Source: an uncultured Christensenellaceae bacterium (GTDB lineage Bacteria > Bacillota > Clostridia > Christensenellales > UBA1242). Taken from it: DNA of 21,991 bases. Below the pieces are notes generated by a model. That model worked only from the letters and a program-made list of their open reading frames with translations. It ran no database searches and was not told the origin of the DNA. The translations under genes and the position numbers were made by a program. The DNA lies in the NCBI GenBank assembly GCA_949902685.1, contig CATLDS010000001.1:1-21991 (forward strand), read 5' to 3'. This document shows, piece by piece, positions 6,639-20,198 of this stretch (positions within the stretch are counted from its first letter, which is position 1; every line of letters begins with the position of its first letter).

Positions 6639-8273
6639 TTATTTGCTATCTTTAAGACTAACAGTCTCTAAGTATATCTTATCATCTTTTTTAGATAATT
6701 TGCTATCTTCAATGTAATAGCCCATACGAACGAACTGTAAATTTCCTTTTTGCTTAAATCCAAACGGCTCAATATAGGATACATTTTCGGTCATAGAATT
6801 TGAATTAACAATCTTATCCAACATTCCACTTTCAAATACTTCTCCCTCTTTTAGAAGATTGCCAAATTTGCGAGTACGTATTTGCTTGCAATGTTTCCTA
6901 CTAAGCCAGTGAATAGTGCCTTTTGGTTTTATACCTTGCTCTTTTGCATCATAAATGATACTGCAATTCAAGTGGTCAATATTCCCCAATTCATCTTTCA
7001 CTACTTCGTAGCACTTAATAATATACGCACCCATTAGGCGAACATATCCATTTGGAGTAAGGCGGAAGAATTTCGCTCCCGGTTTCTCGATGAAGTCTTC
7101 ACGTTCAATAAATAACTCATTGCTAAATATTACAGTGTGTTTCTTGCTCTTAGGATCTAATGGATTGTTAGATACTAACACTTTCTCTGTTCTCTTCTCG
7201 TCATAATTAGTGATGTTAATCTTAATAGGATCAACAACAGCCATTACGCGTAGTGCATTCTTATTAAGTTCTTCACGAATGCACGCCTCAAGAATGTGTG
7301 GTTGAACTAGACTATTAGACTTCGCTACACCTATACGTGTACAAAATTCTTTTATACTAGATGGAGTGTAGCCTCTTCGCTTAAATGCTTCCAAGGTAGG
7401 CATACGAGGGTCGTCCCAGCCATCCACATAACCGCCCTCTACTAATTCACGTAGATAACGTTTACTCATTATTGTACCATCAAGATTAAGTCTAGCGAAC
7501 TCTATCTGCCTAGGCTTAAGTCCTGTCACTAATCGTACATTCTCTAGCACCCAATTATAAAGCGGTCTATGATCTTCAAATTCTAGACTGCATAGCGAAT
7601 GTGTAATACCCTCATGTGCATCCTCTAGCGGATGAGCAAAATCATACATTGGATAGATACACCACTTGTTGCCTTGTCTATAATGCGTCTCGTGTGAAAT
7701 ACGATAGATTATAGGGTCTCTCATATTGATATTAGGATGTTTCATATCAATCTTAGCACGAAGAGTCTTCTCTCCGTCTTTATACTTGTCTGCTCGCATA
7801 TCCATGAACATCTGCAAATTCTCTTCCACACTACGATTACGATACGGGCTATTCTTACCCGGCTCAGTCAATGTGCCACGGGTGGCGGATATCTCCTCAG
7901 CGCTTAAGTCGCATACATACGCCTTACCTTGCTTGATTAAATCAACTGCACAGTCAAATAAAAAATCATAATAGTCGGATGCATAGTACATCTTCTTCCA
8001 CCTAAAGCCGAGCCATTTGATTGCAGACTGAAGTGCCTTTACAAAATGTTCACTTTCCTTGCTTGGATTGGTGTCATCCATACGAAGATTAGTATAACCC
8101 TTAAATTTCTCCGCTGTCAAAAAGTCTATACACATAGCCTTGACGTGTCCTATGTGAGGATAGCCATTAGGTTCGGGCGGAAAACGAGTAACTATCTGTT
8201 TAATTCCTTTTTCCTTAATATCATCTATAATTGCTTGCTCAATGAAATTACTTGGTGTGATATTGCTGTCCAT
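6639..8273 (-). CDS. glnS: Glutaminyl-tRNA synthetase
   Basis: Class I synthetase that charges tRNA-Gln. It has the PPEPNGYPHIGH motif (HIGH at 40-43), the ARLNLDGTIMSKR block (MSK at 269-271) and two C-terminal beta-barrel anticodon domains; at 544 residues it matches E. coli GlnRS (554). The RFPPEPNG start distinguishes it from GluRS. Most Bacillota make Gln-tRNA through GatCAB instead, so a GlnRS is a lineage marker or a transferred gene. AGGAG lies before ATG, with a good promoter at 8290-8318. First gene of glnS-lepB-alkD. Confidence 0.96.
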   Translation of the reverse strand: MDSNITPSNFIEQAIIDDIKEKGIKQIVTRFPPEPNGYPHIGHVKAMCIDFLTAEKFKGYTNLRMDDTNPSKESEHFVKALQSAIKWLGFRWKKMYYASDYYDFLFDCAVDLIKQGKAYVCDLSAEEISATRGTLTEPGKNSPYRNRSVEENLQMFMDMRADKYKDGEKTLRAKIDMKHPNINMRDPIIYRISHETHYRQGNKWCIYPMYDFAHPLEDAHEGITHSLCSLEFEDHRPLYNWVLENVRLVTGLKPRQIEFARLNLDGTIMSKRYLRELVEGGYVDGWDDPRMPTLEAFKRRGYTPSSIKEFCTRIGVAKSNSLVQPHILEACIREELNKNALRVMAVVDPIKINITNYDEKRTEKVLVSNNPLDPKSKKHTVIFSNELFIEREDFIEKPGAKFFRLTPNGYVRLMGAYIIKCYEVVKDELGNIDHLNCSIIYDAKEQGIKPKGTIHWLSRKHCKQIRTRKFGNLLKEGEVFESGMLDKIVNSNSMTENVSYIEPFGFKQKGNLQFVRMGYYIEDSKLSKKDDKIYLETVSLKDSK

Positions 8274-8354: not shown

Positions 8355-8385
8355 TTGACATACCCCCCCCCCTTCATGTTATGAT
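8355..8385 (+). promoter_or_regulatory. Exporter promoter with a C10 tract in the spacer (likely phase-variable)
   Basis: Perfect -35 TTGACA (8355-8360) and -10 TATGAT (8380-8385) are 19 bases apart, and 10 of the 19 are an unbroken C run (8363-8372). Losing one or two C's would bring the spacer to 18 or the optimal 17. Homopolymer runs in promoter spacers are a known phase-variation device in other bacteria. Confidence 0.7.
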
Positions 8386-8409: not shown

Positions 8410-10233
8410 ATGAAGACAAAAGAAAACAAGAAGAGATTTAATTTCTGGCCATATCTTAAACCATATGGAGGATTGATATTTGTATATCTTTTGCTTTACG
8501 TCGCAATAGGTGGAATTTCCATATTCAATACCGTTTATTCAGCCAATGCACTCTCCGCTATCACAGAAGGTCAATATAGACTGGCGATACAGATGACATT
8601 CACTATTATGGTAGTATTACTAATTCACTATGTTATAAATCATTTATTAGAAATAATTTATATTGTGCTAGAGATGAATATTATACGTGACATGAGTGTT
8701 GATGTGGTTAATCAGGCATTTAAAATATCATCGCACGCTTATAGTAATCATAAGACAGGTAATTTCACTGCCCGAATATCAAGTGACCCTGATAAAATCT
8801 TTTATAACCTCGAGAGAATAACAGGACAAGTCACTATAATCATTACCAATGTAATAGTTCTATCATATATCGCTTATCTAAATATATGGGTAGGTGTGAT
8901 ATCTATAGTTGCAATAATTCTTGGCTCTATCATTGAGAATATCCGTAAAAAGAAAATGAAAGTTCTAAGAAAAACTACCGATAAAAAACATGAAAAAGTC
9001 TCTAGTATTGTCAACGAGGTTGTAAGAAGTGAAAAAGATATTAAATCACTAGGGCTAGAGAACGAACTAAAGTCTAATCTTATCAGTAACTATGATATAT
9101 ACAGAAAACATGCCATCAAATCTTCTCTTTATAGTCACCGTATGTGGACTCTGCGTATTATATTAGTCAACATACTTCTATCCACCAGTTTAATCCTTGG
9201 CATTATACTTTTAGATAAAGGACTATTAACCTTCGCTGCGTTTATGCTGATATACTCTAACCGTGGTAGTATGCACGGGCTAAGTAATTCTCTCGGCAAT
9301 ATTCAAAGTTATTACAATGACCTCACTATCAGTGTGGATAGAATAAGTGAATTATTCGAGGATGATGAATTCCAACTAGAACATTTTGGTAGTAGACACT
9401 TAGAGAATGTAAAAGGTAAAATAGAATTCAAGAATGTATCATTCAGTTATACAGATTATAAGGAACGCGATGAAAAAGATATAGAGGCAGACAAAAAATA
9501 TAATAAGAAACATAAAATTAAAACACGTGTACCGACTCGTGAAATATCGGGTAACACTAAAGTCTTTGATAAACTGTCATTTGTCATAGAGCCTAATTCT
9601 ACTGTGGCATTTGTAGGAAAATCGGGAAGCGGAAAATCTACTATTCTAAACTTAGTATCCAAAATGTACAATGCCGATAAAGGTAAAGTTCTATTAGATG
9701 GTGTCGATGTACAGACATTAGATAAGGACACCCTGCGCTCCTCTATCTCACTAGTAAACCAATTCCCATATATATTTGACTTGAGTATTAAAGAAAATCT
9801 TTTGCTTGCAAAAGCAGATGCCACTGATGAGGAAATCACAGAAGCATTAAAAAATAGTGCCCTAGACGATTTCGTAGATACTCTGTCTAACGGAGTAAAT
9901 ACGATTGTCGGTGAGAGTGGTATCAAACTCTCTGGCGGACAGAAACAACGTCTGGCTATAGCTCGTGCATTGCTAAGGAAATCAAATATAATTTTATTTG
10001 ATGAAAGTACCAGTTCACTAGATAACCTAGCACAAAATAAAGTTAAGCAAAGTATAGATAATATTAAAGGTAAAAGTACGGTCGTGATAGTTGCACACAG
10101 ATTGTCCACCATAAGAAATGTAGACAAGATATTCTTCCTAGACAGTGGCAAAATTGTGGACACAGGTACTTTCGATGAATTATTTGAAAACAACGAAACA
10201 TTTAAAACAATGTTCCTAGCAGAAAATATTTAA
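8410..10233 (+). CDS. ABC exporter, fused permease-ATPase (multidrug/lipid type)
   Basis: Half-transporter with six N-terminal membrane helices (to about residue 300) and a C-terminal ATPase; two copies form an exporter. The ATPase shows Walker A GKSGSGKST (about 403-411), a Q-loop (VNQFPYIFD), signature LSGGQKQR, Walker B IILFDEST and H-loop AHRLST, so it should be active. A charged Lys/Asp-rich insert of about 38 residues (about 348-385) lies between the first strands of the ATPase domain, longer than usual. ATG at 8410 is preferred over in-frame GTG at 8404 because GGGGTG acts as its ribosome binding site. It is a single-gene unit with its own promoter and terminator. The substrate cannot be read from sequence. 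Confidence 0.92.
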   Translation: MKTKENKKRFNFWPYLKPYGGLIFVYLLLYVAIGGISIFNTVYSANALSAITEGQYRLAIQMTFTIMVVLLIHYVINHLLEIIYIVLEMNIIRDMSVDVVNQAFKISSHAYSNHKTGNFTARISSDPDKIFYNLERITGQVTIIITNVIVLSYIAYLNIWVGVISIVAIILGSIIENIRKKKMKVLRKTTDKKHEKVSSIVNEVVRSEKDIKSLGLENELKSNLISNYDIYRKHAIKSSLYSHRMWTLRIILVNILLSTSLILGIILLDKGLLTFAAFMLIYSNRGSMHGLSNSLGNIQSYYNDLTISVDRISELFEDDEFQLEHFGSRHLENVKGKIEFKNVSFSYTDYKERDEKDIEADKKYNKKHKIKTRVPTREISGNTKVFDKLSFVIEPNSTVAFVGKSGSGKSTILNLVSKMYNADKGKVLLDGVDVQTLDKDTLRSSISLVNQFPYIFDLSIKENLLLAKADATDEEITEALKNSALDDFVDTLSNGVNTIVGESGIKLSGGQKQRLAIARALLRKSNIILFDESTSSLDNLAQNKVKQSIDNIKGKSTVVIVAHRLSTIRNVDKIFFLDSGKIVDTGTFDELFENNETFKTMFLAENI

Positions 10234-10256
10234 ACTGCCAAATCGGCAGTTTTTTA
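10232..10256 (+). terminator. Terminator of the ABC exporter gene
   Basis: AAACTGCC (10232-10239) / GGCAGTTT (10245-10252), 8-bp stem, 5-base loop, followed by T's; it begins inside the stop codon. Confidence 0.9.
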
Positions 10257-18758: not shown

Positions 18759-20198
18759 ATGAAAAAATTTTCTAAGTATTTTACAATTACCATTTTATTA
18801 TTAATAGGATTATGTGCAGTAGGCGTACTATACATATTCTTTATTCCAGACTCTAACTTATTTGGAATATGTTATATAAGTTATAATCAGGAGTATTTTT
18901 CTAAAAGTTTAGAATCCAACAATGTCTCTAAGATAGTACTCAATAGTACCGATTATGATGTCAAAGTTGTACCGTCAATCAATGATAAAATATCTGTGAA
19001 AGTATATGCTAACTCGCTGGGTTTCTTATTGGTGAAAAATAAGGAAGTATCGATATCTCACACAGTAGAGGCTAGTACGCTAACATTTAACATTAAAGAA
19101 CCTACTGGAGCTGTAGTGCGTAATAGATCGTATATTGAATTACGTCTCCCAGCAGATATGACAATATCTGTAGGTATCAATAATAATAATGCTTCTTCTA
19201 GTATTACTAATGAAGATTTAACTATTCAAAATTTATATTATAAATCCAATCATGGCACTCTAGATATCAGCAATTCTACTATTAATGGCTTAATAGACCT
19301 TGACCTTAATAACTCAACTTTTACACTAAACAATACAACCAAGACTAACAATAACAGAGTTAATATAGATGTATCCGGTGGTAAATTTGATGCTAGCAAT
19401 GCTGTACTAGGCGACATAATTATCAATAAGAACGATAAAGGTGTAATACTTGCTAAAAGTTGTACGAGACTAACTGAGAAAACGTCTCGAGCTGGTGGAC
19501 GTATTAATATTAAGAAAGTAGAGACTATCGACCTAGAGACTAGTGATACTAACGTCTACATTGATGAGATCGTCAATAGTGGTAATATAATCATGACAGC
19601 CAGTGGTAATATCAATATTGGTACTTGCCAAAGTCAAATGAATATTAAGGCTTCTAATGGTCACATCAATATTAAAGAGGCTAAGCAAGGTATCATACTT
19701 ACTACTAGCAACGGCAATATTAATGTAGAAAATGCATATAGCTTTATTCAAGCAAAATCCACATATGGAGATATTAAAGTAAATTATAATGAAGATGCAG
19801 ACCATACTACTGGTGACGGAGCCACTAAGAGAACATTTACAGCCGAGACAGAGAATGGTAAAATAACTGCTACAGGCGTAGAGAAAGTAAACATCACTAT
19901 AACTAAGAATGGTAGAGCGAATATTCAAATGGACAATGTCATTGGTGTAAATTCGATTTCTGCAGGTAATGGCAGTGTGTATGTAGAGTTCACTTACGGT
20001 GCATCATTTGATTTGACTACTTCATCTAAATCAGGTTCTGTAGATGTCAACTATCAAGGACTTGAGATACCTCACCTAGATAAAAATACAAAGACATTTA
20101 ATGTAAACGATAGTAAAGGTGTAAATAGTTTAAAGGTAGAGTCTAATGCAGGCTCATTAAAAATCCGCGATAACACTACCGCAGATCAAGATTTCTAA
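18759..20198 (+). CDS. Membrane-anchored beta-repeat protein (DUF4097-like)
   Basis: 479 residues: an N-terminal membrane anchor (about 8-29, no lipobox), then a long extracellular region made of short beta strands rich in Asn, Ser, Thr, Ile and Gly. Repeated units such as GNINIGT, GHINIKEA, GNINVENA and GDIKVNYN, about 17-20 residues apart, predict a right-handed beta-solenoid as in the DUF4097 (putative adhesin/auto-transporter-like) family. The function of that family is not established; surface binding or envelope stress roles are proposed. The mRNA is probably leaderless. Its stop codon overlaps the stop of the convergent nrnA gene by two bases, with no terminator between. Confidence 0.82.
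   Translation: MKKFSKYFTITILLLIGLCAVGVLYIFFIPDSNLFGICYISYNQEYFSKSLESNNVSKIVLNSTDYDVKVVPSINDKISVKVYANSLGFLLVKNKEVSISHTVEASTLTFNIKEPTGAVVRNRSYIELRLPADMTISVGINNNNASSSITNEDLTIQNLYYKSNHGTLDISNSTINGLIDLDLNNSTFTLNNTTKTNNNRVNIDVSGGKFDASNAVLGDIIINKNDKGVILAKSCTRLTEKTSRAGGRINIKKVETIDLETSDTNVYIDEIVNSGNIIMTASGNINIGTCQSQMNIKASNGHINIKEAKQGIILTTSNGNINVENAYSFIQAKSTYGDIKVNYNEDADHTTGDGATKRTFTAETENGKITATGVEKVNITITKNGRANIQMDNVIGVNSISAGNGSVYVEFTYGASFDLTTSSKSGSVDVNYQGLEIPHLDKNTKTFNVNDSKGVNSLKVESNAGSLKIRDNTTADQDF

Follow-up and report, generated by a model that had tools for sequence, protein, structure and literature searches.

We suggest that a run of ten cytosines in the promoter spacer of an ABC exporter gene is very probably a contingency tract, which would switch the exporter promoter through the length of its spacer and would be one instance of transcriptional phase variation across a genus and family. 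The promoter lies in the window, i.e., the whole stretch of 21,991 bp that was analysed. This window is the entire contig C1 of a 751,161-bp genome in 162 contigs (completeness 84.5%).

The run sits in the only evident promoter of the exporter. We propose that slipped-strand mispairing during replication would add or remove C's and so alter the distance between the -35 and -10 boxes. With C10 the spacer is 19 bp and the promoter would be weak, the extended -10 element perhaps maintaining a basal level. C9 would give 18 bp and C8 the 17-bp optimum. Such changes would be reversible, and individual cells of one population would thus express the exporter at a low or a high level. The exporter locus would be one of several such loci in the genome, in keeping with a habit of phase variation in the genus and in other genera of the family.

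Promoter and gene of the exporter

The promoter is on the forward strand and consists of the -35 box TTGACA (8355..8360), a 19-bp spacer, TACCCCCCCCCCTTCATGT (8361..8379), and the -10 box TATGAT (8380..8385), with the exporter ATG 24 nt 3' of the -10 box. The last three bases of the spacer, TGT (8377..8379), form an extended -10 element of the TGn type. Between the boxes, the C10 homopolymer (8363..8372) is uninterrupted. Slippage is expected in homopolymers of about 8 or more units, and the run is long enough for it. The two boxes, the 19-bp distance between them and the ten C's are as the earlier note had described, and they are confirmed on the sequence. A consensus promoter scan found no other promoter-like site on the forward strand from 8200 to the exporter start codon. 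Because the scan accepts spacers of 16-18 bp only, the 19-bp site cannot appear in its list. Over the whole window it gave 12 sites compared with 11.9 in shuffles, which is no excess.

The gene downstream (8410..10233, forward strand) encodes an ABC half-exporter of 607 aa, in which ABC_membrane and ABC_tran score above their Pfam cut-offs and Walker A, LSGGQ and Walker B motifs are all present. With a membrane domain, an ATPase and the three motifs, it has the features of an ABCB-like half-transporter, and its relatives in the PDB include ABCB1, Sav1866 and MsbA. None of the best 25 of 185 matching NCBIfam families reaches its own cut-off with this protein. We rejected an assignment as an MsbA equivalog, since the best match, MsbA_lipidA, scores 299.9 bits and the curated cut-off is 602; the same holds for the other named equivalogs among these 25. 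A terminator-like hairpin, found by a hairpin scan, lies directly 3' of the gene (10232..10252, forward strand). It is one hairpin detected once per strand, where shuffles expect 0.7 sites. Because of its position directly behind the gene, the transcription unit is probably the exporter gene by itself. The claim that a complete exporter follows the promoter holds. The divergent neighbour, a glutaminyl-tRNA synthetase gene (6639..8273, reverse strand), lies outside the proposed switch. Elsewhere in the window, 18759-20198 encodes a DUF4097 (Toastrack) protein of 479 aa. A protein search returned a 97%-identical exporter from another record (P0001), with 83% of the query covered. Its sequence departs from ours shortly before the ABC signature and stops at 521 aa, which is what a frameshift would produce and may reflect an assembly error or a broken gene.

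Homopolymer runs in the window and the genome

The C10 tract is the sole C or G run of at least 6 in the window. Four overlapping C7 matches were seen, compared with a mean of 0.25 in 100 dinucleotide shuffles, none of which gave four. It had been claimed that such runs are otherwise absent. This is correct for the window and not for the genome, which has four other C or G runs of at least 7. Given the base composition of the window, 0.06 starts of C10 or G10 are expected in 751,161 bp and three are found. Three of the five genomic runs are in promoter spacers, one is at a Shine-Dalgarno position and one is in a coding sequence.

Two more promoters in this genome therefore share the spacer-tract architecture. 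At C18:2937 a C8 run lies within TTGACA-18-TATAAT, upstream of a 205-aa protein. At C94:1736 a C9 run, read as G9 on the minus strand, lies within TTGACT-18-TATACT. The protein after it has, by eye, a signal-type start and repeats, and matches no Pfam family. Among sampled 9-bp intervals of the same sequences, 2.9% are so placed in a TTGACA/TATAAT-like spacer. Against this null rate, three of five runs gives P = 2e-4, and with the reported run removed, two of four gives P = 0.005. Restricting the test to runs outside ORFs of at least 80 aa leaves one run (1/1, P = 0.06) and is uninformative. Chance does not explain the placement of the C10 run in a promoter spacer.

An assembly or sequencing artefact, for example from poly-G read ends, would also produce a C10 run, and some runs in the dataset are indeed close to the end of a contig or directly at it (e.g., L105; in L290 and L291 the contig stops shortly after the tract). 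The run in the window, on the other hand, is found 8 kb into its contig, and species that were assembled separately have tracts at the same place between well-formed boxes. We regard an artefact as extremely improbable.

Tract promoters in the genus, the family and the class

C runs of at least 8 are found in 29 of the 34 genomes of the genus, counting our own. For the other genomes, runs were picked regardless of promoters by taking the locus listed for each genome; two come from G221, and both are matches. Eight of these 29 runs lie in promoter spacers (P = 1e-6), as do 6 of the 18 that are outside ORFs of at least 80 aa (P = 1e-4). In G212, a genome of another genus, the figures are 13 of 28 runs of at least 8 (P = 2e-13; one of the 13, L138, is weak), and 10 of 11 outside such ORFs (P = 9e-13).

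A search of 297 sampled genomes of the family with the pattern TTGACN{1,12}C7N{2,12}TANNNT gave 340 matches, overlapping alternatives included, in 83 genomes, compared with 15 for the reversed pattern. The corresponding G-tract pattern matched 69 times in 20 of the 34 genomes of the genus, compared with one control match. Taken together, C or G spacer tracts are present in 21 of the 34. The spread over the family is uneven, with a pattern match in 14 of 42 genera. In the class set of 196 genomes, 190 are outside the family, and 13 of these match. They give 17 matches and the control 13, so there is no clear excess, and the habit looks to be one of this family. Viral contigs contained no copy of the exporter promoter and no promoter of the form TTGACAAATC8..TATAAT.

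Variation of tract length and base between relatives

If the tracts act through their length, this length should differ where the flanks are the same. Genus g34 allows this comparison at one homologous promoter, that of a lipoprotein gene which 11 of its 112 genomes carry (56-100% identical). We left out L234, in which the match begins at residue 73. All ten species examined have a tract in the spacer, namely C9, TC9, C10, C8T, CCAC7, C9, C10 and three times G8, i.e., C in seven species and G in three. L229, L231 and L232 share an identical 91-bp upstream flank, including the -35 box, and differ in the tract (TC9, C8T and CCAC7, respectively). In the genomes that carry them (G261, G142 and G222), there are 0 or 1 differences in the 37 bp from the -10 box onward.

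In the genus of the window, G092 and G221 have G9 and G11AGG, respectively, upstream of ATPases that are 98% identical. These two are the only genomes with a tract there; the other seven of the nine genus genomes that have a homologue of this ABC ATPase (L103) have none.

Variation is also found between copies inside one genome. G163 has nine closely similar tract promoters (L278-L286), each in front of its own copy of a multigene family. Those of the first type have G10, G11, G11, G12, G10 and G11, and the three of a second type have G10, G11 and G10. For eight of the G163 genes the product could be read. These proteins are 373 to >770 aa long; their N-termini are hydrophobic, of signal type and fall into two or three groups, and the rest of the sequence diverges. 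From these features we take them for a family of surface proteins. G123 has four similar promoters with G10, G11, G11 and G13, the G13 coming from the pattern-match listing alone, and sets of similar tract promoters are present in G188 and G223. We also considered loss of mismatch repair as the cause of slippage and found it unsupported, as MutS is present in 110 of the 118 family genomes searched, including our own.

These comparisons bear on the possibility that a regulator binds the tract as a fixed site, in which case a C9/G9 motif in the spacer marks a regulon and the sequence matters rather than the length. Of 123 C tracts, 75 are C9, a predominance that is also expected of a fixed motif, and 89 are followed by a G. 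Several promoters of G237 have TTGACAAATC9GAG in common. Conservation of base and length is nevertheless not what is seen at the homologous lipoprotein promoter, where the tract ranges from C7 to C10 and is G8 in three of ten species. The replacement of C by G speaks against a sequence-specific binding site. Lengths of 10-13 occur with the same flanks in one genome, the position of the tract within the spacer varies, and the same genomes have tracts in coding and Shine-Dalgarno positions. We consider a fixed regulator site unlikely and favor the contingency tract.

Spacer lengths of tract promoters

In ordinary pairs of TTGACN and TATAAT-like boxes without a tract, taken from the fetched loci, the spacer is 17 bp in 80 of 217, 16 bp in 19 and 18 bp in 22, and about 5 to 13 pairs are found at each other length. 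The 114 tract promoters are distributed differently, with 15 bp in 28 and 16 bp in 38 (66 of 114 together), 17 bp in 17 and 19 bp in 11. The sample is limited in that many of these loci were found with the tract pattern, and this pattern permits spacers far above or below 17. In our genome, G163, G123 and G188 the spacers are mostly long (at least 18), and in g34 mostly short. Since they are long or short on either side of 17, one or a few units would bring them to the optimum. In the exporter promoter, the loss of one or two units brings the 19-bp spacer toward or to the 17-bp peak. Thus, the tract length is likely the variable that matters, and we infer that C10 is a low-expression state of the exporter, which fits the 17-bp peak of the ordinary promoters.

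Tract promoters also have TGn before the -10 box more often than other promoter-like pairs (56 of 114 compared with 41 of 217).

Proteins encoded downstream of tract promoters

A lipobox is found in 16 of the 92 proteins downstream of tract promoters, and in 7 of the 335 further ORFs that these loci contain; two rows of the 92 are repeats, and some of the proteins are orthologues of each other. By a crude prediction, an N-terminal hydrophobic stretch is present in 39 of the 92 and in 77 of the 335. Pfam gave a single weak family match among seven proteins that follow spacer or Shine-Dalgarno tracts. As judged from their sequences, the targets of tract promoters appear to include lipoproteins, large secreted-type repeat proteins and transporters.

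The tract at the exporter locus

The evidence at the exporter locus itself points partly in the other direction. We surveyed homologues of the exporter in the genus (44-56% identical), one copy per genome and up to 260 bp upstream. Of 20 loci, 19 were usable, since L079 matches only from residue 190, and C or G runs of at least 6 are absent from all 19 upstream regions. Some of these loci (e.g., L068, L071 and L072) have promoter-like boxes without a tract at a comparable place. Because the 19 regions are without such a run, the exporter tract appears specific to this species among the genomes compared, and its origin could be recent and neutral. A role of the tract at the exporter is thus inferred from sibling loci, and the length variation between conserved flanks comes from loci elsewhere in the genus and family.

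This leads to a second alternative, in which the exporter has an ordinary weak promoter whose output depends mostly on the extended -10 element, and the C run arose by chance or by neutral slippage and provides no useful variation. The homologues without a tract and the TGT directly before the -10 box fit this alternative. It does not account for the association between runs and spacers in the genome, the genus and the family, for the tract in all ten lipoprotein promoters examined, or for the excess of lipoproteins downstream of tracts. Because of these three observations, we suggest that there is selection for the tract arrangement in general. At this single locus the run may still be neutral, which we think improbable. 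The earlier note had placed the exporter promoter among homopolymer-spacer promoters that depend on tract length. Comparison strongly supports the existence of this class here, with two other promoters in the same genome, most genomes of the genus, a third of the family's genera and length variation between fixed flanks. For the exporter itself the support is partial, the 19 upstream regions of its homologues having no tract. We retain the contingency tract as the preferred reading, with switching at the exporter predicted by analogy.

Comparison with known phase-variable promoters

In Neisseria, fetA (frpB) has a poly-C tract between the -10 and -35 boxes whose length alters expression, and porA is transcriptionally phase-variable (PMC5320596). 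The exporter promoter is like fetA in its poly-C tract between the boxes, and differs in its Clostridia-type host and in its exporter target, for which an effect of tract length is predicted. The tract of the Neisseria porA promoter is poly-G. In Bordetella pertussis, fim2 and fim3 have a poly-C tract in the promoter, the loss of one C abolishes Fim3 production, and the fim promoters require phosphorylated BvgA (PMC10172299). The poly-C promoter tract is shared with the exporter, but no activator is evident there. In the variable lipoprotein families of Mycoplasma, each surface lipoprotein gene has a homopolymer in its promoter region, and these tracts are poly-A. The likeness to the present family is that surface lipoproteins have their own tracts. 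The differences are that the tracts here are C or G and that the lineage of the window has peptidoglycan-type genes, e.g., for a D-Ala-D-Ala carboxypeptidase. Phase variation at the level of the promoter is described in Clostridia for pdcB and pdcC of Clostridioides difficile, which have promoters inverted by site-specific inversion (PMC11868660), whereas slippage is proposed here. The survey of prokaryote homopolymers by Orsi and others, in its excerpted text, concerns coding tracts (PMC2831843). Among the matches listed from openly licensed literature, there was no report of homopolymer promoter switches in such Clostridia. Homopolymer-based transcriptional phase variation is thus known from Neisseria and Bordetella, and what would be new and remarkable is the host group and the extent.

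More broadly, we think it probable that this small-genome Clostridia family has extensive phase variation through C/G homopolymers, which lie in promoter spacers and also at Shine-Dalgarno positions and in coding sequences. Among its targets would be multigene surface-protein families with a length-tuned promoter for each copy. Cells would vary their surface and transport functions in combination, and the exporter would be one switch of this set. Homopolymer promoters appear to be in wide use in this uncultured Clostridia-type family. If so, single assembled genomes of these bacteria represent mixed populations, and sister cells differ in surface and export functions. Metagenome reads then offer an immediate test of tract length.

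Tracts outside promoter spacers

The two remaining runs in the genome are not in spacers. The C10 run at G000:C3:11978-11987 (L025:2479-2488), which is G10 on the minus strand, is at a Shine-Dalgarno position. The G10 ends 8 nt before a GTG, with the start codon hand-picked, and the frame has >820 codons and a signal-type start. Similar Shine-Dalgarno-type tracts, with G9, a short A-rich stretch and ATG, are found on the other strand of L127 and L147 in G212. The C10 run at C18:5817 (L026:5817-5826) is G10 in the coding direction and encodes glycines in a CofD/YvcK-like gene, where it is possibly a translational switch. This gene adjoins genes that by eye are nucleotidyltransferase-like, HAD-like and glycosyltransferase-like. 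A coding tract also differs between L102 and L104, which have the same protein start and carry G10 and G8, respectively, near the C-terminus, and the difference alters the end of the protein.
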